Below are positions 8,002 through 63,296 of a DNA stretch of 64,000 bases, piece by piece (position 1 is the stretch's first letter; each line of letters opens with the position of its first letter). This DNA is from Diplonema papillatum (taxonomy: Eukaryota > Euglenozoa > Diplonemea > Diplonemida > Diplonemidae). The notes beneath the pieces are model-generated. The model saw only the letters and a program-made list of their open reading frames with translations, was not told the DNA's origin and did not search any database. Both the position numbers and the translations under genes were made by a program. The DNA is taken from NCBI GenBank assembly GCA_030068145.1, contig JAPJBO010000094.1, forward strand, positions 248,001 to 312,000, given 5' to 3'.

Positions 8002-8053
8002 TGCATGCTAATCCATGTGGTTCATGTACTTAAAAGAACTCAATGCTTAACGG
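8002..8053 (+). repeat. 3' terminal tail of element A, copy 1
   Basis: This 52-base segment starts TGCATGCTAATCC and ends CTTAACGG. It recurs nearly unchanged at 13626-13677, after the stop codon of A2. Sequence after the two copies differs, so it marks the 3' end of the element. In this copy the next base starts the 5'-truncated A2. Confidence 0.85.
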
Positions 8054-16150: not shown

Positions 16151-16155
16151 GTGGA

Positions 16156-16284
16156 CTTTGACGAGCGATTTGCACGTCAACACCGCAACGGACCTCCACC
16201 AGGGTTTCCCCCGGCTTCGTCCTATCCAGGCATAGTTCACCATCTTTCGGGTCCCAACAAGCGTACTTAACTTCAAATCCCTTA
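16156..16284 (-). rRNA. 28S rRNA fragment (pseudogene), antisense
   Basis: Read on the - strand, the segment contains the conserved large-subunit stretch GACCCGAAAGATGGTGAAC, followed by GGACGAAGCC and GACGTGCAAATCG. About 129 bases match the fragment at 50491-50619 with few differences; both start and stop at the same rRNA positions and the flanks are unrelated. It is a dispersed partial copy, not a working rRNA gene. Confidence 0.85.
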
Positions 16285-33159: not shown

Positions 33160-33257
33160 TGGCGCCAACTACAGTATTTCGCTTCATCATAGCGGTGGCG
33201 AGTGGTGGAATGTGACTTCTGCCCAGTGCCCTGAATGTCAACGCTGAGAGATCAGGT

Positions 33258-33317
<60 letters not shown>

Positions 33318-33500
33318 TTCTAATTAAAGACGCGCATGAATGGACCAATGAGATTCCTTCTGTCCCTACCTACTATCTGGCGAAACAGCAGTCAAGGGAA
33401 CGGACTTGAAACTGTCAGCGGGGAAAGAAGACCCTGTTGAGTTTGACTCTAGTCTGACTTTGTGCAGTGACACGAGAGGTGTAGAGTAGGTGGGAGGCCG
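33160..33500 (+). rRNA. 28S rRNA core fragment including the R2 target motif (pseudogene)
   Basis: The segment contains conserved large-subunit blocks in order: TGACTTCTGCCCAGTGC, CAAGCGCGGGTAAACGG, GGGAGTAACTATGACTCTC, AAGGTAGCCAAATGCCTCG, GACGCGCATGAATGGA, and GGGGAAAGAAGACCCTGTTG. The region around the universal R2 insertion site is intact and uninterrupted. About 340 bases are recognisable; flanks are unrelated, so it is a displaced piece of rDNA. Confidence 0.9.
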
Positions 33501-37433: not shown

Positions 37434-39912
37434 TTACAGTGTCTGCACCTTTACAGGCAAGAGGGTGTGTCTGCACCCTTCCAGGCAAGAGGGTGTGTCT
37501 GCACCTTTACAGGCAAGAGGGTGTGTCTGCACCCTTCCAGGCAAGAGGGTGTGTCTGCACCTTTCCAGGCAAGAGGGTGTGTCTGCACCCTTCCAGACAA
37601 GAGGGTGTGTCTGCACCTTTACAGGCAAGAGGGTGTGTCTGCACCCTTCCAGGCAAGAGGGTGTGTCTGCACCTTTACAGGCAAGAGGGTGTGTCTGCAC
37701 CCTTCCAGGCAAGAGGGTGTGTCTGCACCTTTACAGGCAAGAGGGTGTGTCTGCACCCTTCCAGGCAAGAGGGTGTGTCTGCACCTTTACAGGCAAGAGG
37801 GTGTGTCTGCACCCTTCCAGACAAGAGGGTGTGTCTGCACCTTTACAGACAAGAGGGTGTGTCTGCACCTTTACAGACAAGAGGGTGTGTCTGCACCTTT
37901 ACAGACAAGAGGGTGTGTCTGCACCTTTACAGACAAGAGGGTGTGTCTGCACCTTTACAGACAAGAGGGTGTGTCTGCACCTTTACAGACAAGAGGGTGT
38001 GTCTGCACCTTTACAGACAAGAGGGTGTGTCTGCACCTTTACAGGCAAGAGGGTGTGTCTGCACCTTTACAGACAAGAGGGTGTGTCTGCACCTTTACAG
38101 ACAAGAGGGTGTGTCTGCACCCTTCCAGACAAGAGGGTGTGTCTGCACCCTTCCAGACAAGAGGGTGTGTCTGCACCCTTCCAGGCAAGAGGGTGTGTCT
38201 GCACCCTTCCAGGCAAGAGGGTGTGTCTGCACCTTTACAGGCAAGAGGGTGTGTCTGCACCCTTCCAGGCAAGAGGGTGTGTCTGCACCTTTACAGGCAA
38301 GAGGGTGTGTCTGCACCTTTACAGACAAGAGGGTGTGTCTGCACCTTTACAGACAAGAGGGTGTGTCTGCACCCTTCCAGACAAGAGGGTGTGTCTGCAC
38401 CCTTCCAGACAAGAGGGTGTGTCTGCACCCTTCCAGGCAAGAGGGTGTGTCTGCACCCTTCCAGGCAAGAGGGTGTGTCTGCACCTTTACAGGCAAGAGG
38501 GTGTGTCTGCACCCTTCCAGGCAAGAGGGTGTGTCTGCACCTTTACAGGCAAGAGGGTGTGTCTGCACCCTTCCAGGCAAGAGGGTGTGTCTGCACCTTT
38601 ACAGGCAAGAGGGTGTGTCTGCACCCTTCCAGGCAAGAGGGTGTGTCTGCACCTTTACAGGCAAGAGGGTGTGTCTGCACCCTTCCAGGCAAGAGGGTGT
38701 GTCTGCACCTTTACAGGCAAGAGGGTGTGTCTGCACCCTTCCAGGCAAGAGGGTGTGTCTGCACCTTTACAGGCAAGAGGGTGTGTCTGCACCCTTCCAG
38801 ACAAGAGGGTGTGTCTGCACCTTTACAGACAAGAGGGTGTGTCTGCACCTTTACAGACAAGAGGGTGTGTCTGCACCTTTACAGACAAGAGGGTGTGTCT
38901 GCACCTTTACAGACAAGAGGGTGTGTCTGCACCTTTACAGACAAGAGGGTGTGTCTGCACCTTTACAGACAAGAGGGTGTGTCTGCACCTTTACAGACAA
39001 GAGGGTGTGTCTGCACCTTTACAGACAAGAGGGTGTGTCTGCACCTTTACAGACAAGAGGGTGTGTCTGCACCTTTACAGACAAGAGGGTGTGTCTGCAC
39101 CCTTCCAGACAAGAGGGTGTGTCTGCACCCTTCCAGACAAGAGGGTGTGTCTGCACCCTTCCAGGCAAGAGGGTGTGTCTGCACCCTTCCAGGCAAGAGG
39201 GTGTGTCTGCACCTTTACAGGCAAGAGGGTGTGTCTGCACCCTTCCAGGCAAGAGGGTGTGTCTGCACCTTTACAGGCAAGAGGGTGTGTCTGCACCCTT
39301 CCAGACAAGAGGGTGTGTCTGCACCTTTACAGGCAAGAGGGTGTGTCTGCACCCTTCCAGGCAAGAGGGTGTGTCTGCACCTTTACAGGCAAGAGGGTGT
39401 GTCTGCACCCTTCCAGGCAAGAGGGTGTGTCTGCACCTTTACAGGCAAGAGGGTGTGTCTGCACCTTTCCAGGCAAGAGGGTGTGTCTGCACCTTTACAG
39501 GCAAGAGGGTGTGTCTGCACCCTTCCAGACAAGAGGGTGTGTCTGCACCTTTACAGACAAGAGGGTGTGTCTGCACCTTTACAGACAAGAGGGTGTGTCT
39601 GCACCTTTACAGACAAGAGGGTGTGTCTGCACCTTTACAGACAAGAGGGTGTGTCTGCACCTTTACAGACAAGAGGGTGTGTCTGCACCTTTACAGACAA
39701 GAGGGTGTGTCTGCACCTTTACAGACAAGAGGGTGTGTCTGCACCTTTACAGACAAGAGGGTGTGTCTGCACCTTTACAGACAAGAGGGTGTGTCTGCAC
39801 CTTTACAGACAAGAGGGTGTGTCTGCACCCTTCCAGACAAGAGGGTGTGTCTGCACCCTTCCAGACAAGAGGGTGTGTCTGCACCCTTCCAGACAAGAGG
39901 GTGTGTCTGCAT
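37434..39912 (+). repeat. 28-bp minisatellite, about 88 units
   Basis: The unit is GAGGGTGTGTCTGCACC plus an 11-base variable part (CTTTACAGGCAA, CTTTACAGACAA, CCTTCCAGGCAA or CCTTCCAGACAA type). Variants form blocks: alternating TTTACAGGC/CCTTCCAGGC units, then long runs of TTTACAGAC, then CCTTCCAGAC. This block order repeats, giving a higher-order period of hundreds of bases. Because 28 is not a multiple of 3 and the 84-bp frame cycle lacks stops, all three + frames are open for ~2.6 kb with the same Cys-rich peptide. I regard these as non-coding. Confidence 0.95.
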
Positions 39913-43055: not shown

Positions 43056-46000
43056 ATGCTTGGCCGCGCATGCCCGGTGCCGGGAGACGGGAACTGCCAG
43101 TTCTCAGCCATCGCACAACGGCACGGGACAGTGGATGCAGAGCGACTGCGACAAATGGTAGTTGATGAGATGGAGGCGCGCCCGGCTGACTACCGTCCGT
43201 ACATGGTGATGGAACCGGGGCCGGACAGTCGAGGGCTCACGGTGGCGGAAGAGTTGGCCAAGTGGCAGGCTTACCTGGCGGCCATGCGGAGGAACGCCAC
43301 GTACGGCGATGAGCTGACACTACGGGCAGCGTCGCGAGTGCTGCGCTGCGACATCTGGGTGCTGAACGCGACGAGCCGGGAGGCCCTACGTGGATGCAGA
43401 CAACCGTCGCCGACCGCGACCATTGTTCTTACGTACCGGCCGGAGCACTACGACACCGTGATTCTACCGCTGCCGAGCCAGCGCCTGCTGGAGGCGACGA
43501 CAGGCGACACGGTACCCTTGGCGCGGCTCGCTCTGATTAATGCTGGCCCGGTTGCTGGCACAGACGCACCGACCCACCACCTACCAACCGGCGTGCCCGC
43601 CGCTGCGCGGACCCGGCAACGGAACACGCGCCCCCGCGCGCCCGAACCAAGGTTACCCAGCATCGCCGAGGCGAAGCAGGATCGATCATGGAGCCCGCAC
43701 GACGACGATATAGTGATCGTCACCATAAACGTGACATCCTTGGACACGGAGAAGCTGTTGGTGGTGGCCCTGCTCAAAGCAGATATAGTCGTACTGCAAG
43801 AGACCCGGGTAACCAAGGCAGAAAAGGCGTACATGGGTTCATTTCTCGCGGCGTACGGATGGAACGTGCACTGGGGCGACGACGTAACGATGGTGGAAGG
43901 TGGAGACGGGAGAAGCCAAAGAAGACCTGGTGGAGTGGCAGTGCTAACCCGTCAGCACCTCACAGCGCAACTAGTGGCAGCGGTTGAAGACTCAGAGAAG
44001 AGAGTGGTGGCATCGACGCGCGTTGTGCATGTTGTCGTAGCCCTGGGGGACGGCAGAACAGCATTACACATATTCTCGTTGTACGGGCAGAGCGGGAACA
44101 GCGTGCAGGTGCAGGGGGAAAGGGAGCAGTTGATAACAGAGGTGTTGGGTATAGCGGCAGGCCTGGGGCAAGTGCCGACCCTTGTAGTGGGTGACTTCAA
44201 TTGTTCGACAGAGACCAGTTCAGTACTAGCCGCAGCATGCCGGTCGGGAAGATGGGCAGATGCGGCAGCCGCTTACGCGGTAGGCCAAGGCGAAGAACCA
44301 CCGTGCACGTGCTGGGCGCCGAATGCGACAGGAGGGAGCAGGATAGACTTGTGCCTCGCCAATGCCTGTGCGGCACCAGCCATCAGCAAGGTCTGCACAG
44401 TGGAAAGGAAAAACAGCGAGTTCCACACGCATGCACCAATGTACGTGACGATGCGCCAGCAAGTGTTCCGAGAGCGCCACAGGCGCGCAATACTCCCGAC
44501 AGCATTTCCTCGGGCATATCCGTTGCTCAACCTGAGTGAGAAGAGTCTTTTAGAAGTGTTCGCCAACGAGGCAAAAGAGGCCATGACGGGAGCTATGAGT
44601 CTGAAACAGCTATCGCAACACGCAGAAAGCTATCTGCTCATGTTGCACAGGCGCGAGCTCGCATTGCCGTCCAGGGCGTACAAGGGACGCGGGAACCAAG
44701 TGGTCAGCGACTCGCGACTAGCCACCAAATTCCAGCACTCGTCAACAAGGGGTGCCTCCACGAAGCAAACTCGAGCACGAGACGAGCTGTTGGGGCACCT
44801 GCGGACATTGGTACAAGCAGCCCGGGAGCGACTGAGATCTGACATACCGTATCCGCTTACAAGACGAGAGGAAAAAGCGAGAGAAGCCGCACGGAAGAGG
44901 GTAGGAAGAGGCCACATCCCGGAGGCAGTCGCCAACATCGTGATGTCAGGCGATCTCTCCGAGTTACAAGCGCTTCAAAGCGCCTTGACGAGCCTGGAGG
45001 GATCCCAGAGGGCAGCATTCTCCGCGCTCAGACGGCACAGAAAGGCGCAGTGGACGCATAAGATGCAGGAAGCATGGGCGCATGGAAGGGGCTTAGTGTT
45101 CAATTTCATCGCCGATAAATATGCCTCGCCGTTGACGTTCCTGCGACGGGACGACGGAACCCTGACGGCGAACGCGGCGGAAATTGACGAGATCTTGAGG
45201 GGCGAGAAGGCGTGGGGTGGAATCTTTCAGCGATACACGACGCGGGAGGAACCGTGCTGGGGGCGGTTTCTGCGGATGTACAGCCCCGTCCTGCCAGACA
45301 GGGCCGAAATGGAGTGCGAGGCGATAACGGTGGGTGACGTGAAAGCAGCGCTTGCGAAGATGAAGAAGTCAGCCTCAGCTGGGATGCACGGGTGGAGGAT
45401 CCACGAGCTGCAACAGCTGCCGAACTCGCTTCTGGAAGGGTTCGCACGAGTACTAAATGAGGTGGAGGAAAGCGGAGAATGGCCGGAAGAACTGATGCAC
45501 GCTCTCGTCTCGCTGATACCGAAACCGAAGAGCACAGGAGATCCCTTGTCCCAACGACCGATCTCAGTGGCACCGGTGCTGTACAGGATATGGGCTGCTG
45601 TCAGGGCTAAAGACGCGCAACGCTGGATGGACGAACTGGCTCCAGAGGGGCTCCACGGCTGCCGGCCTAAGCACAGCACGGAAGACCTTTTCTGGCATCT
45701 GGCAGCCGAGATCGAAGAGGCGCACCTCATGGGGCGCCCGCTGTATGGCATCGCGTTCGACTTTAAAAAGTGCTTCGATTCGGTGCCCATCAACGTCACC
45801 CTGCAACTCGCAAAGAAGCTGGGATTCAACCGAAAGGTACTTCGGGCATTAGAAGCCGCATACCGACAAATGCAACGGCATTTCAAGGTAAACGGGACGG
45901 TCGGAGGTGGGTTTATCCCAACAAACGGGATCATGCAGGGCTGCGCAATCAGTGTGATACTGATTGGGCTGTTGATCAGCGTGTGGATGAGGCACGTAGC

Positions 46001-48737
46001 GCAAGAAGGACGTCCACGATCATACGTGGATGACATAACAGCCACGGCCAGAGAAGCAAGTCACCTGCAGACGATAGCGAACAAGACGGTACAATTCGAA
46101 GAAATGACCGGCTTATGGATTTGCCTAGCGAAATCCCACTCGTTTGGAACGACGTTGCGCCAACCAGCGGTCGAAATCATGAGCTGGCAAGAAGACACTG
46201 ATGTTTTCGTCTCGGAAGACCCCCCGCGATTCTACAAACGGACGGACAGCTTCGATTGCCTTGGGGTCATGGTGCACGCACGTGGGCATGGACGCCAGCT
46301 GTCGAGCAGGATCCGACAACGCAGAGAAGGAGCAGTACTAAATTTGCAACGAATAAAAAGAATACCAGTACCGGCAACGGCACGTGAGACGCTGGTTTCA
46401 ATGACCGCGTGCGCAAAAATGTACTACGGCATATCGGTCATGCCGTTAGACAACAGGACGTCGAACACCATGCGCCAGGCCGTCATGACAGCCCTATGGA
46501 CCGGTCCCAGCAGACGTGCAGTTGAAGTGGTGATGCAGGTGCTTCACCACGGGCACCGGCTGGACCCTTACACTGCCCCGGCTTACATACGGATCCGGAC
46601 ATGGGTGCGACAAATGCGGAAGTGGCGGCACATCAGGACACTGGCGGGTGTGGCTTGGGCGCACAAAGAGACGTTACCGGATGGTTCTCCGCACAGGTTG
46701 ATGTGGGATGCTCTAAGCCAGGCGGAGTGGGCGTGGACAACCCCTGACACCATCGGGTATACCAATGAGATCGGAGAGCAGGTCGTTTTTAACACGGACG
46801 ATGCGAACGAGAAGCAAACGACAATCATGCTGCACGACTTGCGCCAGGCGCTACGACGCCAACAATTGGCAAAGATGTGCAACAGAAGGGAAGACTTGCG
46901 AGGATGTGCGCACGGGGTGGATGGAAGCGTAACCCGACATCTCCTCGAAGCTCTCGATAATGGATTGACAGGATACCAACAGGGGATGTTACGATCAATA
47001 ATAGCTGGGGCCGTGGCAACTACAGGCAGAACGGGGAAAAACGAGACTTGCCCATATTGCAACCAGGACGAAAGGGAAACTGTGGCGCACTTGTGGTGGG
47101 AGTGTGAGGCTTGGAGGGGTATACGGCAGGAGCACGGCATGGGCACCGTGGACAGGACAACATGGCCGAATTGCCTGAGCATGTGCGGAGTCGCACCCAT
47201 GCACAGACACGGCACGGACCCCGCCCTGCAGCCAGTACCACTCGACCATGGTGAAGCCTGCCAATTTGTAAGCAGGCTACAGCGATACTACCTGGCTGTA
47301 CTGCGTGCAAGGCAGATAAGGGATGAGAGAGAGCAGGAGACAAGTCGCCACCATCGACTGACCCAATACCCGTGGGGGTGGAGAACAACGAGTCCAAGGC
47401 GGGTCTGCATTCCAAAGATTGAGGCCGAAACAATCACGCAGCAGTGGAAGCACGGCGGCGAATTGTGGAACGCCATGCACTGGTGGCTAAACAGACTTCG
47501 ATGGGCGCACGTTGGATCGGAACACGCAGTGACTTTCTTGGAGTTGGCCATAGACTTCGAAGTCACAACGGGCGTGCGGCTGCCGATAGTGGCAAATCGG
47601 CGAATCCAACCGCCGGCAGCCTCGAAAGCCAAGGCGACGTCGGCCCGAGCCGTACTCCCCCCCAGAGAAACCACCGAGGGCCTATGCATGTACTTCGATG
47701 GCGGCTCAAGGCAGAACGGAACTGCACTGGCGGTGGCTGGGGCCGGAGCAGTCATCTACAAGGATGGGCTGAAGCTGGCGGAGACAACAGTTCCCTTGGG
47801 TCGGACCACCAACAACGTGGCCGAGTACAACGGCCTGATAGCGGGGATACGACTGCTCGGGGAACAGCCGGGCGACGTTGAAGGGCCGGTAAAAGTCAGG
47901 GGCGACTCACAAGTTGTAATAGGACCAGTAAACGGGACGGCCATGTGCAAACCCAACTTACGACCGTATTTTCTGCAGGCGAGGGCGAGCATGGCCGACC
48001 TGACACCGCGGTTTGAGTTCAGTCTGGAACACGTACCGCGGAGTAGGAACGTCGATGCGGACGCGTTAAGTAACGCGGCCATGGACAGGGTGCAAGCAGA
48101 GACGGGCGCGCAAGTAGGATTGATACGGGCGCAGTATGAGGAGTACAAGAGCAGTGCACTGGCGAAAGGTCAGTCTTTCCGAGCGGTCACCAGCGCGGTA
48201 GCACGAATCTGTGGCGTAGCGTGGCACTGTGGGCACGTCTCCAATGTCACCAGCGTCACAGCGCTAGGCGGAGGGGTAATGCTAGGCCTCTCGTGCCGAG
48301 CCGAGCTAGCCCCGCAGACCGAAGCAGTGTTGCAGGAAATGAGTCAGCCGCGCCCTGGCACACACACAGCTGCGACGGCACCCGCGAGCCCATTCGTCAA
48401 GGCACATGAGGCATGGGCAGCGAGCAGGCACCCGGAACACTTTTACAGTACAACATGGAAGGAGGAGGCGGAGTGGAAGGGAAGAGAGCAGGAGAGGGGC
48501 GCAAGCAGCCAGCGATCCCGACCAACAGCAAGGAAAGCGAGGAATGCGACGGCACGATGCGCGAAACATGATGAACCCCGCTGCACCGCGTGTAAGAAGA
48601 GGCGATTGCCCCCAGATACGTGTTGCGACCAGCAGCACATGGGACATGGAGCAGGGAGCCTAAACCAAACGAGGCTGCAGTTTAGATCAGAGCGTGGCCA
48701 CCACGAGCAGCCGGCAGGACCATCAGCTGTGACGTGA
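43056..48737 (+). CDS. Retrotransposon B ORF2: OTU protease, APE endonuclease, reverse transcriptase, RNase H
   Basis: The 1893-residue product starts with an OTU cysteine protease (deubiquitinase fold): D11-G-N-C14-Q-F with C14 nucleophile, TYGDELTLRAAS, and H131 in EHYDTV. An APE endonuclease follows at ~225-470 (VGDFN, RIDLCLAN). The reverse transcriptase spans ~770-1010 (D902 in FDFKKCFD; YVDD 990-993). A CCHC finger is C1332-x2-C1335-x9-H1345-x4-C1350. RNase H spans ~1543-1680 (D1548 in YFDGGS, then NNVAEYNG, RGDSQVV, NVDADALS). One Cys/His unit starts at C1835. The first ATG is at 43056, but the frame is open upstream to the ORF1 stop and the extra residues look like the front of an OTU domain. 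The true start may lie upstream or come from readthrough. OTU proteases occur in Dualen/RandI-type elements (established); role unknown. Confidence 0.9.
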   Translation: MLGRACPVPGDGNCQFSAIAQRHGTVDAERLRQMVVDEMEARPADYRPYMVMEPGPDSRGLTVAEELAKWQAYLAAMRRNATYGDELTLRAASRVLRCDIWVLNATSREALRGCRQPSPTATIVLTYRPEHYDTVILPLPSQRLLEATTGDTVPLARLALINAGPVAGTDAPTHHLPTGVPAAARTRQRNTRPRAPEPRLPSIAEAKQDRSWSPHDDDIVIVTINVTSLDTEKLLVVALLKADIVVLQETRVTKAEKAYMGSFLAAYGWNVHWGDDVTMVEGGDGRSQRRPGGVAVLTRQHLTAQLVAAVEDSEKRVVASTRVVHVVVALGDGRTALHIFSLYGQSGNSVQVQGEREQLITEVLGIAAGLGQVPTLVVGDFNCSTETSSVLAAACRSGRWADAAAAYAVGQGEEPPCTCWAPNATGGSRIDLCLANACAAPAISKVCTVERKNSEFHTHAPMYVTMRQQVFRERHRRAILPTAFPRAYPLLNLSEKSLLEVFANEAKEAMTGAMSLKQLSQHAESYLLMLHRRELALPSRAYKGRGNQVVSDSRLATKFQHSSTRGASTKQTRARDELLGHLRTLVQAARERLRSDIPYPLTRREEKAREAARKRVGRGHIPEAVANIVMSGDLSELQALQSALTSLEGSQRAAFSALRRHRKAQWTHKMQEAWAHGRGLVFNFIADKYASPLTFLRRDDGTLTANAAEIDEILRGEKAWGGIFQRYTTREEPCWGRFLRMYSPVLPDRAEMECEAITVGDVKAALAKMKKSASAGMHGWRIHELQQLPNSLLEGFARVLNEVEESGEWPEELMHALVSLIPKPKSTGDPLSQRPISVAPVLYRIWAAVRAKDAQRWMDELAPEGLHGCRPKHSTEDLFWHLAAEIEEAHLMGRPLYGIAFDFKKCFDSVPINVTLQLAKKLGFNRKVLRALEAAYRQMQRHFKVNGTVGGGFIPTNGIMQGCAISVILIGLLISVWMRHVAQEGRPRSYVDDITATAREASHLQTIANKTVQFEEMTGLWICLAKSHSFGTTLRQPAVEIMSWQEDTDVFVSEDPPRFYKRTDSFDCLGVMVHARGHGRQLSSRIRQRREGAVLNLQRIKRIPVPATARETLVSMTACAKMYYGISVMPLDNRTSNTMRQAVMTALWTGPSRRAVEVVMQVLHHGHRLDPYTAPAYIRIRTWVRQMRKWRHIRTLAGVAWAHKETLPDGSPHRLMWDALSQAEWAWTTPDTIGYTNEIGEQVVFNTDDANEKQTTIMLHDLRQALRRQQLAKMCNRREDLRGCAHGVDGSVTRHLLEALDNGLTGYQQGMLRSIIAGAVATTGRTGKNETCPYCNQDERETVAHLWWECEAWRGIRQEHGMGTVDRTTWPNCLSMCGVAPMHRHGTDPALQPVPLDHGEACQFVSRLQRYYLAVLRARQIRDEREQETSRHHRLTQYPWGWRTTSPRRVCIPKIEAETITQQWKHGGELWNAMHWWLNRLRWAHVGSEHAVTFLELAIDFEVTTGVRLPIVANRRIQPPAASKAKATSARAVLPPRETTEGLCMYFDGGSRQNGTALAVAGAGAVIYKDGLKLAETTVPLGRTTNNVAEYNGLIAGIRLLGEQPGDVEGPVKVRGDSQVVIGPVNGTAMCKPNLRPYFLQARASMADLTPRFEFSLEHVPRSRNVDADALSNAAMDRVQAETGAQVGLIRAQYEEYKSSALAKGQSFRAVTSAVARICGVAWHCGHVSNVTSVTALGGGVMLGLSCRAELAPQTEAVLQEMSQPRPGTHTAATAPASPFVKAHEAWAASRHPEHFYSTTWKEEAEWKGREQERGASSQRSRPTARKARNATARCAKHDEPRCTACKKRRLPPDTCCDQQHMGHGAGSLNQTRLQFRSERGHHEQPAGPSAVT

Positions 48738-50490: not shown

Positions 50491-50619
50491 AAAGGGATTT
50501 GAAGTTAAGTACACTTGTTGGGACCCGAAAGATGGTGAACTATGCCTGGATAGGACGAAGCCGGGGGAAACCCTGGTGAAGGTCCGTTGCGGTGTTGACG
50601 TGCAAATCGCTCGTCAAAG
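50491..50619 (+). rRNA. 28S rRNA fragment (pseudogene)
   Basis: It is the same large-subunit piece as at 16156-16284, here on the + strand: AAAGGGATTTGAAGTTAAG, GACCCGAAAGATGGTGAAC, GGACGAAGCCGGGGGAAACC, GACGTGCAAATCG. The two copies have the same end points but different flanks. Confidence 0.85.
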
Positions 50620-51685
50620 CTGGGTACTGTTTCTTTGCCGCCAGATGTTCCCTGTTCGGTGCAGTTCCCTTCCGGGAACCCCGTCTGCTGTGAGTTATGA
50701 CAAGCATTCGTCCTCGAACATTTACGAAGGTGTATCCATCACCCATTGGTGTTCCTTATGCCGAAGGCATCACCGAAGAAGGCAGCCAAAGTGTTCTAAC
50801 AAGTCGTAGTGTCAGACCACTCCGCGCTGCACTTTCTCCTCTTTTTTTGTCAGCAGCGCAGCATTTCTCTTGCGCACCGACTCACCTTCGATTGCGCGTT
50901 AGCCACCCGCTCGATTAACGACCGTTTTCTTTTTCTTCTTTTCCCATTCAAATTTTGTCCCATTCATCAGCATCGCAGGTCCTCATTTATTTTTGACGCC
51001 GACCCATTTTTTTGGGGCCGTGACATGAAACGCGTTTGAGTGGCTGAGAACCCATGCAAAAAAGTAGGGACTTTCCCCGCCGAGCCAGCCAGCCCCGAAG
51101 AGTCCGTGGTAGGTGTTTTGTTGATGCCGGGGCGGAATTCCCTGCGGCGCATAGCGACTGCACAATGTTGGTGGAAACTTGTCGAAGCCCTCCACGCGTT
51201 CGTGGAGGAATGCAGAGCATCCAGATTTCCATGTAATTCCCGGCTGTCGTTCGCAAGCAAAGTCGCCAGACAGGCAGCACAAGACAGAAGACCGCGGCGG
51301 AGACGAGCAGCTTCCAGAACGGTAGAACCTACCCAGAAGGAGTTAACCACCCTTGAGTGGGCTAGTCTGAAGCGGTCGTCGCCACAACCCACAAAAAATG
51401 GTCAGACGGTACCAAGAAGACAGACAGTCACCTACTGCGGCACCATACTGAGGAGGGCCTACCGTAAGTAAGGTATGTGGACAATGGCCGAAACCACCAA
51501 TGACCAACGACCAAGGTACCCACCGATCCTCTTACCTCGTGTAACCACCACTCTTACGACACTCAGAGCACAAAAAATATCTTCCCTTAACGACGGAGGT
51601 CACCCGGAGACTTTAAAACCCCGGAGTTTCAAGCGAACTTTCACTCTAAAAAACGTCGAAAGCCACCAATCCCGGTCGATTGTCG

Positions 51686-55022: not shown

Positions 55023-56363
55023 CTGGGGAAACATGGTGGCCGAGCGTGCTTGCTTATGGGCTATCATGGGACCAATCATGTGGCCCATCATCCGTCTCGT
55101 GCTAAACCCTCGTTAACATTTCCCTGCTCTCATCTCTCGGTGCAAAGAAGTCACGGCGAGCACCAAGTATCCTGCTGAGAATCGCTCCCTTCTCAACGAG
55201 GTGGTCGTCGCGGCCTCCATATGCTTGACCTGAAGTCGTGATGGGGTACTTTGCTGGTTTGTAGACATTCAAGTGTACCGGACCCCCGTCTTGCCTATTT
55301 TGCCGATGCTGTTGCGAATCTTCTTGGTCTTCAACAACAAAACTACGCACTTCTTCGTGCGGTTGGTCATCCTCAAATACCGTAGCCCTGAACCGTAGGC
55401 TGAAAAGCGACAGTTAGGGAGCAGGAATTCTTAGAATACCGGAGCTGAAGGATTTGAGGAACAGCGGGTCGCAGGATACCAGTCTTGTGGTGAAGGAAAG
55501 TAGCACAGAAGGCCAAATACCGTGTTCCACAGTGAAAATAGCCTGTACTCGTCTAAACTCGTCAATACGAGTTTAGACGAGTTTTGACGAGAATGATACG
55601 AGTTTAGACGAGTTTGGTACGAGAATACGAGTCGTTTGGCGAGAATTTGCTCCGAAAACCGAAATACGAGTTTAGACGAGAATACGACTCGTATGCACAG
55701 TATGCGCCCCCCCCCCCCCTGGACGGAATGTGAGTGCAATGCTTGTTGTGTCCTTCTCCCATCAACGACAGGGGGGCCCGGTTCGTTCCGGGACCTAGGT
55801 GGATGGAGCGGCCATACCCACCCAGTCACCCTAATCGCCACGGGGTGACCTCTCGAAAAAATAACCCGCTCGCCTTCTGAGGGCTCTGACGCGATGGACG
55901 TACAGAGTCCGCAAAACAACCGCCTTGTGCACAACCGACGAGAGAAGAAAGCAACCGGTACAGGTAGGGAGACGGTCCACCCAAACGACTTCGCCCCGCT
56001 GTACCACCAACCACGGCATCGAGACCGGGCAGAGTCTAGGAGTATTCCATCCTGCCCCCGTACGGCCTCGTTACTTCCAACCGGGATTGTACCATTGTTC
56101 GACAACCGAAAACCCAGAACACCGACAAAGACGCGCTGGGCCCTGAGCCTAGCAAAAAAACCAACAGCAGTAGTTTAGAAGCGTGAATCCCCTGCCCCTT
56201 GTGAATTGCACTACACCGACTGCCCAGCCGAGCAAACCACCCCGTCCGCCCGCCCCTCCCCAACACCCCTTCCGTTACGTTACGTACCATCAGCTCTCCT
56301 CCGTCCATCATTAGACCTCCCTCTACGACGATTCTTCTTCCACCACTAGACCTCCCTTCGCCA
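55023..56363. other. Intergenic upstream of element C1
   Basis: It contains the dense CGAGTTTAGACGAG cluster (55550-55700) followed by a 13-base C run (55710-55720). No gene supported. The element C reading frame is open without ATG for at least 120 bases before 56484. Confidence 0.4.
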
Positions 56364-56483
56364 CCCCCCTACAACACCCTAGCCCGACACCCTGACCCCC
56401 CACAAATCCCCCTCCGTTCTACACGTCCGGTTTTGCGACAACCCGACCCACAAACGCACGGGACCCTGCCGGAACGTGCCGAG

Positions 56484-59400
56484 ATGCGTGTGCCACCAGC
56501 CGACGCGGATATGCGACGACGCCCGGAGTTTGCGAAGCCGTTCCTCGCGCCTTTCTTCCAAACCGACTGTGTTCGTGCAAAGACGGAGAAGACGACACAG
56601 ATCGACTGGCTGAAGTGGAAGGAGCAGGGCTCGGAGTTTACGAGCCGATTCCTGAGGAGATACGAGAGGAGGCTCGCACACACATACGCGACACTCAAGC
56701 TCCAGCAGCCGACGAATCCGAGCAACTACAGGGCTTCGGGGCTTATCTATGGGCTCGTGGATTCACATGCTAACCTGTTGTATGTCGGCAAGACGGCAAA
56801 GACGATGCAGGAAAGGGTCGCCAAACACTGGTCTGCCAGGAACACCAAACAAGACCAGTTCAAACGTCACCTGCAGAACCTCCCCTCCCCGCCGTACTCG
56901 TTCGTGCTCTACGACATCCCTGGTGCGTTCTATGCCGACGGGAGATCGTTCGACAGGGTGTCGGAGCCGATAGAGATGGCGTTCATCGCGATGCTGCAGC
57001 CGAGGTTCAACACGGTGAGGACGACCAGCGGCTTGAACAACCGAAGGAAAAAGCCCCGCGCTGCTCCGTCGTTCACAAAGGCGTCGGGCAACGAACCGGA
57101 CACCCCAGGGGCCTCTCGTGAACGTGGGGAACCGTGGGTTCACGTGGATGGTGAGCAGATACGGATCGACCAAGGTCGGGGGAGGTACTTCGGCATCCGT
57201 AGACAACTGCAGCACCTCTTCGGGCTTGAGGAAGACGTACTACAGAAGTATGACGTGAACCCGTGGATGAAGAGCCGGGTGTACAGGGTCCGGACATGGG
57301 TTCGGCGGTTCATGGCCGAGCACCTGCAGCTTCCGAAAGTGGGGATCCTGGACGAGCTGCTCACGGCACGGCTCGGTGAAATAAACCACCTCGCGAAGAA
57401 GAAGAAAAGTGCGGCGCGAACTCCGTGGTTCTGTATCCAACAAGTCAGTAAGTTGCTCGACGAACGCAAACTGGCCGCCATCTTTCGTCACGATGCGCAA
57501 CTCCGTGCTCTCCTCGCCGACCCCACGGAATTCATCAATACAAGGGTCTCTACATCACTCAACCCCCCCCTTGGTGTCCTCCTTTCCAACTTCACGGAGG
57601 TATCAAGGCAGACGACCCCGGAGCCGGCCCCTCCGCCCGAGGAATGCCCGTGTCAGAGATATCTACTACAAGGATACCACATCCAGGGCCATGCGTGTGG
57701 GCAGGCACACCTCCTCGACACCAGCAGCGAGCTCGTTACACTCTTCGACAAAGGTCGCAAGTTCCGACCGGACGGCGGCGACGAGGCCATTTGTACTGAG
57801 GTTGATAAGGCGGTGGCTTTGTTCATCGAAGGGTATTTCAGCGATTCCCCGCCTAGTTTCGCCAGGCTACTGCGGGAGAAGATACTGTCGACTGTCGGCG
57901 TGGCGAGAATCGGGGCCGAACCGGAGGTGACGACCACGACGCGACGACGCCTGCGGGAACTGTACAAGGACGTCGTGATTCTCCCGGTCGACAAGAGCTC
58001 ACATGACTTCGGGTTCGTATGCAGACGATTCTACAACCAGGATCTATACACGAAGGTCAACCACAGCGTAAACTACGCCCCGAGCGAAAAGACACCGGAG
58101 GAAGTCGTTGCAGACCACAAGACATACCTGGACGACAGAGGGCTGAGCCCCACGAACACCCTCCCCTATTTGTATGGTACCTTGAAACTACATAAGGAGG
58201 TGATAACCATGAGGTACATAGCGGGGGTCTCCCGCAAGAACACTGTGGGCCCGGAGGAGACGTTCCCTGAACGCGAAACACGCCGCCCGGATGCGACATT
58301 CTCATCAACGACAGATGCGCAGCTAGATCTGACGGGGTTGTTGAAATCGGTCATGGAGATCTTACGGAGGGAGGACAACGACCGTTTCAATGCGACCGGG
58401 TTCAGGTTCTTCTGGATCACGGAGTCCAGCGACGACACGGCCTTCTTCCTGAAGACTCATGTTGATGAGCTCTCGGGTCTAGTTGCTGGTACGTTTGACT
58501 TCACAACCATGTACGACCAGCTGGGGCTCGAGGAGCTGTCGGAAGAGATTTCTAATACCATCGACGAGGCTTTTGCGGCGGAAGCCGAACGGCTTGGCAT
58601 ACGGGTTGAAGACCTAGTCCTGGTACGACCGAAGAGCCAGCACGGGCCGCAAAGGAAGAAACGCTGTTTTACTTTCAAGCTATCGACGGAGCTAAGTTCG
58701 CAGCAGGCAGCGTATTCCGCGCAGGACCTCAAAGCTCTCCTTGCCTTCTGCCTAGCGAACACGTATGTACTGGTGAATGGCACCCTCATGCGGCAAATAC
58801 TGGGCATCCCGATGGGTGCTAACGCCTCCCCGGACATTGCAAATCTCTTCTGCTACGCAAAGGAGAAAAGGTACATGCTGAAGCTCCTGGCTGAAAAGGA
58901 AATCCGACGGGCTACACTCCTCAGCATGACGCGCCGTTTCATCGATGACCTACTGTGCTTCGGGACGAAACCCCCGCCCGAATCCATCTACAGCATGCGA
59001 TACAAGCAGACGAACACATGCGTAGGGGATTCCACCTTCCTTGGCATACGAATAAGACACGAAGTCTCCGACGCGTCTGGAAGGAGGTACATGCGACTGT
59101 CGGTTCTGGACAAAGCGAAAGCCTACCCATACCGCCCCCTCGCGTACACGTCGGTCCTCTCGACGGCCCCGTCCAACTTCGGTTCGAGTATCCTCATTGG
59201 GGCCCTCGTTCGTAACGGTAGGATCGCCAACAACCTGTATGACTTCAAAACTGAGATGAACAACACGGTTTTGAAACTCATGCGACGCGGTTACCGTAAG
59301 AGCGTACTAAAGAGCGGTTTCCGCAAGTGGCTACTAGATACGTATCCGGAGGCTAAGTTTGGCGAGCATTGCGGGAAAGTGCGTGCACATTTCTTTTGGC

Positions 59401-60977
59401 TGATCCACGAGGTGGAACGTGTCCTGTTGATGCCAGAACCGGCCGCGATGGACCAGGCGATTGAGCGCCTTCTGGCTGAGAAGCCCTTTGTGAAGTACAG
59501 AGGCCACCCCCAACCCGTTCCAGAAGCCGACTCCCCCCCACCGCCATCCCCCGAGACGTCGGCCCGACAGGCAGACTCGACCACCCCCCCTGAGTCCACA
59601 CGGAAGGGCCACAAACGAAAGGCTGAAGGGGACGAGCAACGTGACTCGAAGCGACGCCGGGCGAATGCCTGTAAACCAGCTCATGCAGTTCCCCCGACAT
59701 CCACACGCTGCCAATCGGTCATCTGTGCAAGTCCGCCTTTCGTGAAGCATGATCCGGCACTGTTTGGTCCTGCCGGCCTCCCAAATCTGGGGAATACGTG
59801 CTTCCTTGGTGCTGTGCTGCAACTCCTCATACGGGTTGAACCGATCAGGGAGATGTACTGGAGCCTTGCTCAGGACCGCCTCAACTGCTGTGGGTTCCTC
59901 CGGGACTTCCTGGCTTACTTTGCCGTATTAGCAAGCTCGCGCGACAGCGGGGACCAGCGCAGCCAGGACTGTCGAAGAATGGGTGTGCAGGCCGTCTTAA
60001 ACATGTTCCCAAACTTCTGCGATGCGCTGCAGCACGATGCACACGAAGCATTGGTAGCGATCCTGAACGCGACTGAGACGACGCTGGGACCGGACGAAAC
60101 CGAGGCCCCCTGCCCGGGCTACCAGCTCTTCTTAGCATGCGTGGAGAACCGTTGGACCAACACGACACGATGTGAGGCATGTGGACGAACTAGTTCCAGC
60201 CCTCAGGCGGTACAATGTCTGCAGATCCCCTGCGGAAAAAGGCTGGAAGATTCTCTCTGCGTACGCGGGTTTGTAAATCCGAAGAGAGGGTGCGACTGCG
60301 AAGCTGTAGGGACTGTGGCAGAGGATACGAACCTCCGGCTAACGGCTGATTGTGTACTGATGCAATTTGGCATCTACACGAGAAATGGCGCTAGACGCCG
60401 GAATGACGTTGGGTTACCTCTCCTCTTAGAGCTACCGGGCCACCTACTGCGCCTCGCTGCAGTCGTGGTGCACTTGGGGGAGAGTACGGCTAGTGGGCAC
60501 TTCGTCACGTACGTTGCGCAAGACTCAGGTTGGATCCTCTTCGACGATCTACGGGTCAGCCTCGTCGAGGACATTCCTTGGGACAATGTTTACCTCGCGG
60601 CCTTTGTCCGGGTCCCCCAGATTGCCCACAGCGTGACTGTCCGTGCGCCGTCACCCTCCATGATACTTCCTGCTCAAGATCAGCTACGCGGCTCGTCTAC
60701 GCCCCCAAATTCTGCCGGTGTTGTGGTGAACCGACAGTCGGAAGAATCACCTAACCTGCTCTACCCTTCTGGTAGTCCATTGCCCTGCCCGCCCTTGCCG
60801 GACTCCTTATGCCCGACCCCGCATGGTCAGCTGTTGGAGCAGCAGTGGGCGGGATCCCCTGCGCTGCGGTGTCAACACTGCGCCATCGAGTGTACCAAAG
60901 ATGGGCAGAAGTTTCAGGGTTTGAAGGGACTCCGTGCACATGAGAGACGTTGCCGCCTCGCGAGTGAAAGACTCTGA
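56484..60977 (+). CDS. Penelope-like element protein: GIY-YIG endonuclease, reverse transcriptase, USP deubiquitinase
   Basis: From the first ATG the product has 1497 residues. A GIY-YIG endonuclease lies at ~80-175: GLIYG (Y89), YVGKT (100-104), R111, and E164 in PIEMAF. The reverse transcriptase spans ~560-860, with D672 in TFDFTTMYDQL, GIPMGANASPD from 774, and FIDD 819-822. The MGA-SPD form of motif B is typical of Penelope-like RTs. A ubiquitin-specific protease follows (~1095-1395): Cys box GNTCF (C1106), QHDAHE (from 1183), zinc cysteines C1230, C1233, C1270, C1272, His box GHFVTYV (H1339), D1354/D1355. The protein ends with a C2HC-type finger. N-terminal GIY-YIG matches the permuted Chlamys-type Penelope elements (established); the USP fusion is not something I know from them. 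All catalytic residues are present. Confidence 0.9.
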   Translation: MRVPPADADMRRRPEFAKPFLAPFFQTDCVRAKTEKTTQIDWLKWKEQGSEFTSRFLRRYERRLAHTYATLKLQQPTNPSNYRASGLIYGLVDSHANLLYVGKTAKTMQERVAKHWSARNTKQDQFKRHLQNLPSPPYSFVLYDIPGAFYADGRSFDRVSEPIEMAFIAMLQPRFNTVRTTSGLNNRRKKPRAAPSFTKASGNEPDTPGASRERGEPWVHVDGEQIRIDQGRGRYFGIRRQLQHLFGLEEDVLQKYDVNPWMKSRVYRVRTWVRRFMAEHLQLPKVGILDELLTARLGEINHLAKKKKSAARTPWFCIQQVSKLLDERKLAAIFRHDAQLRALLADPTEFINTRVSTSLNPPLGVLLSNFTEVSRQTTPEPAPPPEECPCQRYLLQGYHIQGHACGQAHLLDTSSELVTLFDKGRKFRPDGGDEAICTEVDKAVALFIEGYFSDSPPSFARLLREKILSTVGVARIGAEPEVTTTTRRRLRELYKDVVILPVDKSSHDFGFVCRRFYNQDLYTKVNHSVNYAPSEKTPEEVVADHKTYLDDRGLSPTNTLPYLYGTLKLHKEVITMRYIAGVSRKNTVGPEETFPERETRRPDATFSSTTDAQLDLTGLLKSVMEILRREDNDRFNATGFRFFWITESSDDTAFFLKTHVDELSGLVAGTFDFTTMYDQLGLEELSEEISNTIDEAFAAEAERLGIRVEDLVLVRPKSQHGPQRKKRCFTFKLSTELSSQQAAYSAQDLKALLAFCLANTYVLVNGTLMRQILGIPMGANASPDIANLFCYAKEKRYMLKLLAEKEIRRATLLSMTRRFIDDLLCFGTKPPPESIYSMRYKQTNTCVGDSTFLGIRIRHEVSDASGRRYMRLSVLDKAKAYPYRPLAYTSVLSTAPSNFGSSILIGALVRNGRIANNLYDFKTEMNNTVLKLMRRGYRKSVLKSGFRKWLLDTYPEAKFGEHCGKVRAHFFWLIHEVERVLLMPEPAAMDQAIERLLAEKPFVKYRGHPQPVPEADSPPPPSPETSARQADSTTPPESTRKGHKRKAEGDEQRDSKRRRANACKPAHAVPPTSTRCQSVICASPPFVKHDPALFGPAGLPNLGNTCFLGAVLQLLIRVEPIREMYWSLAQDRLNCCGFLRDFLAYFAVLASSRDSGDQRSQDCRRMGVQAVLNMFPNFCDALQHDAHEALVAILNATETTLGPDETEAPCPGYQLFLACVENRWTNTTRCEACGRTSSSPQAVQCLQIPCGKRLEDSLCVRGFVNPKRGCDCEAVGTVAEDTNLRLTADCVLMQFGIYTRNGARRRNDVGLPLLLELPGHLLRLAAVVVHLGESTASGHFVTYVAQDSGWILFDDLRVSLVEDIPWDNVYLAAFVRVPQIAHSVTVRAPSPSMILPAQDQLRGSSTPPNSAGVVVNRQSEESPNLLYPSGSPLPCPPLPDSLCPTPHGQLLEQQWAGSPALRCQHCAIECTKDGQKFQGLKGLRAHERRCRLASERL

Positions 60978-61575
60978 ACCGTCGTTTGGGCCTCATCGAA
61001 TTCCTGACTGTTGGCTGGTCTATTTTACGCTCTGCACCCGTTCACCCTGACTAACGGGAAACAACTCGAAGTGTTCTATACGGGTGAATGCGCACTATCA
61101 TGAGAGGATGAAGGCACGCATATCCCGCCTGGCCCTGTGCTAGGCGTAGTTTTAGGTTGTACTTATTTCCGAACAACCTACCACGAGCTTATCCACCCAC
61201 ACACCCAACTTTTTCCCCTTTCTTCTAAATTCTTTTTTTTTTTTTTTTCCCCCGCTGATGACTAACGGACCGTCGGACCCGTCCCAACGGGGATACTTAT
61301 GGAAGTTACAATGAAGGCTTAGACCGGTACGGGCTACATGGCAACTCCTGCTCAACATGTAGAACGTGGGGAGCCCTTGGTCACATTCAATACGGGTGTG
61401 ATCGTGGTGTCGGTCGCAACAGTCGTTTGGTAGCCAAAGAGAGAGATAGAGAGAAAAAGAGCGCCAGAGAGAAAAGAAAAGATAACGTTATCTTCCGGAA
61501 AAGAAGGGTTACGCGAACCCCCGAAAAAAAAAAAAAACAAAAAAACAAAAACCGAAAAAAAAAAAAAAAAAAAAT
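56484..61575 (+). mobile_element. Penelope-like retroelement C1 with USP domain
   Basis: The coding region is followed by a ~600-base 3' UTR ending in A-rich sequence (61524-61575). The 3' UTR is shared with copy C2. Within it CGCCT..AGGCG can pair around 61130, and a purine-rich stretch (AGAGAGAGATAGAGAGA) precedes the A tract. The 5' boundary is not defined. Confidence 0.8.
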
Positions 61576-61671
61576 ACAAACCGACGAAGACCCCAAAAAC
61601 CTTTTTCAACCTCTCCAATTCCCTTCAAGCTAGACCATTATACAACGACCCCCCCCCCCCCCCCCCCCCGC
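61576..61671. other. Spacer between C1 and C2, with poly(C)
   Basis: About 75 bases of unassigned sequence are followed by a ~20-base C run that directly abuts the truncated copy C2. Confidence 0.5.
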
Positions 61672-63264
61672 AACAGTGGTGACCAGCGCAGCCGGGATTG
61701 CCGGAGAATGGGTGTCGAAGCCATCCTGAGCATGTTCGCAAACTTCTGCGATGCACAACAACACGATGCACACGAAGCTTTGGTAGCGATCCTCAACGCG
61801 ACCAATACGACGCTGGGGCCGGACGAAACAGGGACCCCCTGCCCGGGCTACCAGCTCTTCCTAGCATGCCTGGAGAACCACTGGACCAACTCGGCACAAT
61901 GTAATGCATGTGGACGCGCTTCTTCCGACAGTCAGGCGGTACAATGTCTGCAAATCCCTTGCGGGAGGAGACTGGAAGATTCTCTCTACGTGCACGAGTT
62001 CATAAATCCGGAGAGAGTGTGCGACTGCAAGGCTGTAGGCACGGTGGTTGAGAATATGGACCTCCGTCTGACAGCTGACTGTGTTCTGATGCAATTTGGC
62101 ATCTACACGAGAAACGGTGCCCGGCGCCAGAATGACGTGGAATTGCCCCCTTTCTTCGGACCACCGGACCATCTGCTACGCCTCGCAGCCGTCGTGGTGC
62201 ACATGGGGGAGGATACGGGTAGTGGACATTTCGTCACATACGTTGCACAAGATACGGGATGGATCCTCTTCGACGACCTGCGAGTTACTTTCGTCGACGA
62301 CATTCCGTGGGGTGACGTTTACCTCGCGGCTTTTGTCCGGATCTCCCGGAGTGCCCACAACATGACAGTCCGTGCCCCGTCACCCTCCATGGTGCTTCCT
62401 ACTCAAGATCGACTGCCCGACTCGTCTGCACCCCCAAATTCAGCTGGTAATTTGATGGGCCGACAGTCGGAAGGATCACCTGACTTACTCTACCCCCTTG
62501 GTAGTTCACCATCCTGCCCGCCCTTACCGAACTCCCAATGTCTGACACCGCATGGTCAGTTGTTTGAGCAGTTGGCGGAGTCCCCGGTGCTGCGATGTCA
62601 ACACTGCTCCATCGAGTCTACGAAGGATGGCCAGAAGTTTCAAGGTCTGAGGGGACTCCGGGCGCATGAGAGACGTTGCCGACTCGCGGATGTGAGGTTC
62701 TGATCCACGTCGTTTCAGCCTCATCGGATTCTTGATTGTTGGCTGGTCTGTTTTACACTCCGCACCCGTTTACCCTGACGAACGGGAGAACTCGAAGTGT
62801 CTGTACGGGTGAACGCACACTAACATGAGAGGATGGAGGCACGCATATACCGCCTGGCCCTGTGCTAGGCGTAGTTTGAGGTTGTACTTATTTCCGAACA
62901 ACCTACCACGAGCTTATCCACCCACACACCCACCTTTTACCCCTTTCTTTTTGTTTTCTTTTTCCCGCCCGATGTCGCTGATGACTAACGGACCGTCGGA
63001 CCCGTCCCAACGGGGTTACTTATGGAAGTTACAATGAAGGCTTAGACCGGTACGGGCTACATGGCAACCCCTGCTCAACATGTAGAACGTGGGGGGCCCT
63101 TGATCACATTCATTACGGGTGTGGTCGTGGTGTCGGTCGCAATAGTCGCTTTGCTAGCCAAAGAGAGAGATAGAGAGAAAAAGGGCGCCAGAAAGAAACG
63201 AAAAGATAACGTTATCTTCCGGAAAAGAAGGGTTACGCGAACCCCCGAAAAAATAATTACCCCC

Positions 63265-63295
<31 letters not shown>
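61672..63295 (+). mobile_element. Penelope-like retroelement C2, 5'-truncated
   Basis: Similarity to C1 starts inside the USP region (C1 position ~59943) and continues through the stop codon and the whole 3' UTR to a ~30-base poly(A) at 63266-63295. It is in the same orientation as C1, forming a head-to-tail pair. Confidence 0.85.
61683..62703 (+). pseudogene. Truncated USP domain of element C2
   Basis: The open frame (first ATG 61708, 331 residues) keeps the QHDAHE block, zinc cysteines, His box (GHFVTYVA) and the C2HC finger, but lacks the Cys box with the nucleophile and everything upstream. The frame is intact and differs from C1 mainly by conservative changes, so the parent copies were under protein-level constraint. 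It cannot be an active protease on its own. Confidence 0.8.

Positions 63296-63296
<1 letters not shown>

Follow-up and report, generated by a model that had tools for sequence, protein, structure and literature searches.

The 64,000-nucleotide stretch of the Diplonema papillatum genome analyzed here (the window) almost certainly carries an N-terminal-endonuclease-type Penelope-like retrotransposon (PLE) with a ubiquitin-specific protease (USP) in its single protein. One open reading frame of 1497 amino acids on the forward strand (56484..60977) encodes, in this order, a GIY-YIG nuclease, a CxC motif, a reverse transcriptase (RT), the USP and a C2HC zinc finger, as read from the open reading frame list, the translation and Pfam. 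The fuller account, in which an active or very recently active family of such elements would use the USP to deubiquitinate its own protein or its ribonucleoprotein (RNP) partners, is given about an even chance. To our knowledge, it is rare for a retroelement to encode a ubiquitin-pathway enzyme within its polymerase polypeptide. With an apparently intact USP in a recently active PLE, it becomes testable whether mobile elements can evolve ways to counter the control of their proteins by the proteasome.

The open frame spans 56433-60977 from a TTG codon, and translation from the ATG at position 56484 yields precisely the 1497 residues that a preliminary description of this DNA had assigned to 56484..60977. 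The same description had proposed that nuclease, RT and USP are fused in one frame with the GIY-YIG domain N-terminal to the RT, which is borne out by Pfam, by the motifs, by the domain order in the window frame and by the same fusion in other copies. Its expectation for profile searches held in part for the window protein: UCH/USP scored above the cut-off (E 4.3e-20, 72.8 bits versus 23.9), whereas GIY-YIG remained just below it and RVT_1 was not returned. The nuclease core (56739..57011, forward strand) comprises GLIYGLV (aa 86), YVGKT (aa 100), R111, E164 and N176, some of them presumed to be catalytic. The match to PF01541 had an E value of 8e-4 and 20.1 bits against a cut-off of 22.6, and relatives exceeded the cut-off, namely a subfamily C copy read from L032 (23.0 bits) and two frames of a second lineage, L045 and L046 (26.6 and 27.1 bits). 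No cysteine occurs within aa 81-180 of the window protein, so that its GIY-YIG domain lacks the CCHH motif, as in the Chlamys subgroup of PLEs, which has a GIY-YIG domain without CCHH.

Between nuclease and RT, a CxC motif (CPC, aa 388-390; 57645..57653, forward strand) was recognized by eye in alignments and translations, and likewise by eye in P0008, P0012, P0016, P0017, L045 and L046. The RT of the Penelope/TERT type (about aa 502-960; 57987..59363, forward strand) was delimited by alignment, trees and motif positions (DKS in 502-508, DFTTMY within 671-680, GIPMGANASP at 774, FIDD at 819 and FLGIRI within 851-857). Identification by Pfam alone was dropped because of the missing RVT_1 match, and motifs and relatives were used instead; two relatives aligned to the window RT, P0026 and P0029, do pass RVT_1. 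The Penelope-like affinity suggested earlier is likely on the same basis, since motifs and relatives, including P0017 with its N-terminal GIY-YIG, fit an RT of the PLE/telomerase branch, in a tree built without named Penelope, Naiad or Chlamys sequences. A C-terminal C2HC zinc finger (CxxC...HxxxC, aa 1463-1490; 60870..60953, forward strand) was found by eye, and similar fingers were seen by eye in P0008, P0018, P0022 and P0024.

The USP catalytic domain (about aa 1093-1380; 59760..60623, forward strand) was defined by Pfam UCH, by a profile match to USP12/USP46 and by motif positions. The window protein has the boxes of the Cys/His/Asp-Asn triad, QxDAHE and a zinc ribbon within a whole peptidase C19 domain (C1106 in GNTCF, QHDAHE 1183-1188, CEAC 1230, CDC 1270, H1339 and D1354). 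In the alignment of five element USPs (window, P0003, P0012, P0015 and P0018), the catalytic Cys, the His of the His box and one further cysteine are invariant, as are D and E in the QxDAxE column; by eye, P0018 has a degenerate QxDAHE box and N at the third triad position. A profile of five element USPs matched USP12/USP46 most closely among solved structures (E about 2e-27, nearly the whole domain), while the window protein alone ranked USP14 first. The element USP is catalytic-looking. It resembles USP deubiquitinases in its Cys box, His box, QxDAHE and zinc ribbon, and differs from them in being fused to a retroelement polymerase and in its length of about 280 aa.

The window protein had at least 33 matches in its own genome (31 of 1436 candidates scored). 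Twenty copies were compared with the window copy, and since all 21 were picked as full-length, their intactness is biased upwards; every one has a stop-free frame with the USP Cys, QHDAHE, His and Asp together with the RT and GIY-YIG boxes. The fusion, for which a search of the genome had been suggested earlier, recurs there, with the USP kept in the one frame in 21/21 full-length copies. Over about 4.49 kb, differences from the subfamily reference numbered 1-4 in subfamily A (5 comparisons) and 0-4 in subfamily B (14 comparisons). Such near-identity within subfamilies points to very recent spread and to an element family that is presumably active or was so very recently. Shorter matches were also among those listed in the genome search, one of them with a stop codon. 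At least two pairs of copies (L011/L012 and L016/L028) have common 3' flanks, so that not all copies represent independent insertions.

A search of the genome with UCH (149 of 935 candidates scored) gave 112 matches that agree with the element USP and 37 that do not, counted by USP size and score and not by the presence of an RT. Among database proteins of D. papillatum, P0002, whose cluster counts 7 member sequences, is 100% identical to the window protein over 75% of the query, and P0001 (86%) and P0003 (67%) are filed as 'putative ubiquitin carboxyl-terminal hydrolase 16'. For annotators this is a caution: a retroelement of high copy number goes under the name of a host deubiquitinase, which inflates the number of USPs that the genome seems to have. 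For P0002, a spliced USP-less form was considered and rejected, because the deletion is present in the DNA: most of the USP is missing at two genomic places, L030 (contig C4) and L031 (contig C1875). Within about 3 kb, these sites differ at only 4 bases, of which 1 lies upstream and 3 lie downstream of the junction, and on account of the nearly identical flanks the two deletions look like one event. Judged by eye, P0005 and P0006, in which other parts are missing or foreign, look like gene-model chimaeras, and P0004 (RRP12), P0009 (Mg/proton exchanger) and P0014 (dynein intermediate chain) contain pieces of the element and are probably gene-model fusions. The D. papillatum genome paper warns that repeats in the assembly may be artificially duplicated or collapsed (PMC10161547); neither 'Penelope' nor 'ubiquitin' occurs in the main text of the article.

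The element copy in the window belongs to subfamily A and extends over 55716..61648 on the forward strand; by comparison of the 21 copies, its 5' truncation point lies 768 bp ahead of the ATG, and its other end is the terminal motif CATTATACAACGA. Copy comparison placed a run of 13 C at its 5' junction (55707..55719, forward strand), the last 4 of which may belong to the element. The 3' untranslated region (60978..61648, forward strand) has a fixed end common to the copies, ACCATTATACAACGA, and is followed by a run of 21 C at the 3' junction (61649..61669, forward strand). Directly behind it, a second, 5'-truncated copy lies head-to-tail with the first (61670..63296, forward strand; 84% to A and 91% to B) and retains a C-terminal USP-finger frame (61708-62703, forward strand); head-to-tail neighbors were also found on contig C230.

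Across the copies, one common 3' end, CATTATACAACG, lies 662-679 bases past the last sense codon in 20/21; the exception, L014, carries an internal deletion and has a distance of 504 bases. The resolved 5' ends are ragged, with distances to the ATG that vary from 76 to 2363 bp, and the remaining copies are alike for at least 2500 bp, to the edge of the sequence compared. A run of 5-29 C directly follows the 3' end in 21/21 copies, compared with 149 of 36,732 flank positions. At the 5' side, among the 14 of 21 copies whose junction was taken as resolved, a run of at least 6 C was present at 8 and absent at 6, against 80 of 2,354 background windows. The bias toward simple repeats and the tandem copies agree with those of N-terminal-endonuclease PLEs. 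A fixed 3' end, ragged 5' ends, C-runs and head-to-tail copies are as expected of a target-primed insertion at poly-C (C/G homopolymers), which would be the probable mode here; the C-run could instead have been appended to the RNA as a tail. No hammerhead ribozyme was detected within the window by Rfam at the gathering threshold.

Selection was estimated between subfamilies A and B as dN/dS by the Nei-Gojobori method with 2000 codon bootstraps. The ratio was lowest in the RT (0.052, 0.033-0.076), followed by the finger (0.077, 0.012-0.256), GIY-YIG (0.126, 0.050-0.283) and the USP (0.206, 0.138-0.296), and higher in linker 1011-1090 (0.334, 0.174-0.610) and in the post-USP linker 1381-1455 (0.591, 0.312-1.174). 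Both disordered linkers pooled gave 0.432 (0.280-0.673), an interval with which that of the USP overlaps slightly. In a separate calculation, aa 961-1080, a stretch that takes in the last portion of the RT, reached 0.214 compared with 0.213 for the USP. The evolutionary rate of the USP is about four times that of the RT, and since the linkers range from 0.21 to 0.59 by stretch, it appears constrained, but not clearly more than all its neighbors. By these estimates the USP is under purifying selection that is weaker than on the RT and not clearly stronger than on all surroundings; this reading is kept despite the equal adjoining stretch because the ratio of the USP is well below 1. Comparisons with subfamily C and within lineage II were not used, being saturated for the most part, with pS at about 0.6-0.8 in the majority of stretches.

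The join of RT and USP recurs in more distant relatives. For the RT-USP protein P0015, the Diplonema genome gave 1019 candidates, of which 58 were scored, so that it has at least 58 matches, with identities of 51-54%; most of the scored matches span nearly the whole protein including the USP, many frames are near 1450-1510 aa, and stops lie inside one of the 58. The lineage II frames L045 (1503 aa) and L046 (1429 aa, from GTG) contain GIY-YIG, CxC, RT and a C-terminal USP (E 3e-15 and 4e-18, respectively), with no finger after either. P0012 combines an RT 33% identical to that of the window with UCH (E 2.5e-21); it is a transcript of Rhynchopus humris, the species behind the transcriptome label Rhum in the relevant part of PMC7052976. 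Coming from a transcriptome, it indicates that the RT-USP join is transcribed in a second diplonemid; GIY-YIG was not found in the P0012 record. In P0018, the RT is followed by several fingers (by eye) and then by the USP. P0008, P0022 and P0024 have an RT and a finger with no USP by Pfam, and the more distant P0016, P0017 and P0019 likewise gave no USP by Pfam.

In the RT tree, the USP-bearers form one branch together with P0008 and P0022 (support 99/99 in the first tree and 91/95 in the second). Twelve named fragmentary Diplonema proteins and rows with insufficient coverage of the RT profile were left out of the first tree, and P0023 and P0028 additionally out of the second. The USP-bearers as a single RT clade were rejected (AU p 1.4e-20), P0008 and P0022 nesting inside. 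Mapped on the tree, USP presence takes 3 changes, either one gain and two losses or several gains. The USP may be dispensable in some elements (P0008 and P0022), and both of these models may be incomplete. That so many copies are intact and that remote relatives have RT and USP joined in the same way suggests that the USP is retained for its use.

A tree of the USPs themselves separated the element USPs and one further sequence, L043, from 11 host USPs of the same genome, though not decisively (support 77/85); without three long rows (P0018, L042 and P0012), the split from 10 host USPs was supported by 89/92. A single origin of the element USPs is allowed by these trees. The element USPs as one clade without L043 were rejected (AU p 0.0006). 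L043 is the USP of a 694-aa protein on contig C9 (L047:2226-4307) that consists of an N-terminal metallo-beta-lactamase domain and the USP; the lactamase part was present in 1 of 64 scored matches, and the USP of this protein is 55% identical to the subfamily C USP over the matched stretch. Past the stop codon of the metallo-beta-lactamase/USP gene, weak homology continues into the post-USP linker of the element, which hints at a transfer of the USP from element to gene. The gene may have been made from an element USP, the reverse direction being possible. The two deep USP-bearing lineages, the USP-less relatives, the poly-C junctions and this gene, whose USP sits next to those of the elements in the tree, go beyond what the preliminary description foresaw.

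N-terminal-endonuclease PLEs of the Chlamys/Naiad group were reportedly described by Craig et al. in 2021. Elements of this type have a CxC motif between nuclease and RT, an insertion-in-fingers domain, a simple-repeat bias and tandem copies. By these features, the window element resembles Chlamys/Naiad PLEs in the N-terminal GIY-YIG followed by CxC and RT, the single open reading frame, the simple-repeat bias and the tandem copies, and differs from them in the USP and the C-terminal C2HC finger, the poly-C junctions and the diplonemid host. In comparison to canonical Penelope/Poseidon elements, as portrayed in part of PMC11167929, it shares GIY-YIG and a telomerase-like RT in one open reading frame and tandem copies, but their nuclease is C-terminal and that of the window element N-terminal; the portion of that source on these elements mentions no USP, and no Rfam hammerhead at the gathering threshold occurs in the window. 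Helentrons, according to sections of PMC4067079, are likewise mobile elements with a deubiquitinase-type protease whose catalytic residues are conserved, but they are rolling-circle DNA transposons and carry an OTU domain, not a USP, in an additional open reading frame. The Burro giant Gypsy-like elements and Terminons are retroelements with extra domains, some ubiquitination-linked (MATH/TRAF), or PLEs with extra enzymes, and the sections on them in PMC6431247 mention no USP; Penelope, ubiquitin, GIY-YIG and reverse transcriptase occur together in that source about other elements. No report of a USP in a PLE was found among the titles listed in a search largely without subscription literature. 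The USP-bearing PLE is apparently new, with a priority that cannot be certified.

In the favored mechanism, GIY-YIG would nick C/G homopolymer tracts, the G-run 3' end would prime reverse transcription of the 3' end of the RNA, and the USP would strip ubiquitin from the element's own protein or from bound RNP partners, by which clearance through host E3/proteasome would be prevented before and during integration. Since a single molecule combines the RT, the nuclease and the USP, the latter would act in cis. Nicking and copying by the EN/RT pair has a precedent in PLEs (PMC11167929), and a host that restricts a retroelement in this manner is exemplified by human L1 ORF2p, to which TRIM41 attaches ubiquitin and which is then degraded (PMC10716122); by analogy with this, a USP in cis would shield the element protein. 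Self-deubiquitination taken by itself falls slightly short of an even chance. Protection of the element from the proteasome is the most likely of the explanations and is favored over action on chromatin ubiquitin; both had been raised in the preliminary description, and both are reasonable.

The main rival is that the USP takes ubiquitin off host proteins at the integration site, histones H2A/H2B or repair clamps, where chromatin would be opened or repair steered and second-strand synthesis completed. The solved structures nearest to the profile of element USPs point this way, USP12/USP46 belonging to a WDR48-dependent group that acts on histones and repair factors, and a nuclease-RT entering chromatin would carry the USP to the site. 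However, this closeness may reflect the shared core only, given that the window protein alone is nearest to USP14, and the fusion to an RT requires no chromatin substrate; even with the chromatin role proposed for the Helentron OTU protease in part of PMC4067079, we consider this explanation rather unlikely. That the USP fold serves as a ubiquitin-binding tether, with catalysis secondary or lost, and directs the RNP towards chromatin rich in ubiquitin or towards the proteasome/DNA-repair machinery would agree with a constraint weaker than on the RT and with the degenerate QxDAHE of P0018, but it is improbable in view of the catalytic boxes in 21/21 copies and of the Cys and His in all five aligned USPs.

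Processing of the element's own polyprotein in the style of a retroviral protease is very improbable: the USP does lie between RT and finger with fast-evolving linkers around it, and cleavage of its own protein is one proposal for the Helentron OTU in part of PMC4067079, but in the window open reading frame Pfam detected no ubiquitin-like domain of the sort that USPs usually take as substrate. Least probable is that the USP is an unused chance passenger or that it arose as an artefact in the assembly or in gene models. The genome paper's warning about repeats in the assembly (PMC10161547), the several chimaeric-looking database models of this element family and the equal dN/dS of the adjoining stretch would speak for it; it is largely refuted by a frame read from the DNA of many contigs, most with different flanks, by a USP dN/dS of 0.21 with an upper bound of 0.30, and by the occurrence of RT joined to USP in a second lineage as well as in the transcriptome of another species.

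Elsewhere in the window, a LINE-type frame of 1893 aa (43056-48737, forward strand) encodes an N-terminal OTU cysteine protease, an EEP endonuclease, an RT and RNase H, and its OTU domain has kept DGNC and a His. By its domain make-up, this OTU in an unrelated LINE is a putative independent gain of a deubiquitinase-type domain. A wider scenario, in which diplonemid PLEs gained a deubiquitinase once and early and kept it as a cis-acting anti-restriction function against the proteasome, the same pressure brought the OTU into the unrelated LINE, and one USP later passed to a host gene, is speculative and doubtful as a whole. If true, it would mean ubiquitin-based control of retroelements in an early-branching eukaryote.

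Two adjacent LINE-type frames (2050-7983 and 8005-13608, forward strand) encode an N-terminal AlkB-like 2OG-Fe(II) oxygenase, an EEP endonuclease and an RT. The genome paper reads a dozen AlkB-type genes as host demethylases (PMC10161547); some AlkB-type genes of D. papillatum may be element-borne. Three fragments of 28S rRNA were located at 16106-16253 (reverse strand), 33165-33352 (forward strand) and 50543-50626 (forward strand), and 28S rRNA fragments of D. papillatum are described in part of the same paper (PMC10161547). A tandem array of a 28-bp unit in about 88 copies occupies 37439-39911, and the overlapping long open frames there are probably its by-product.
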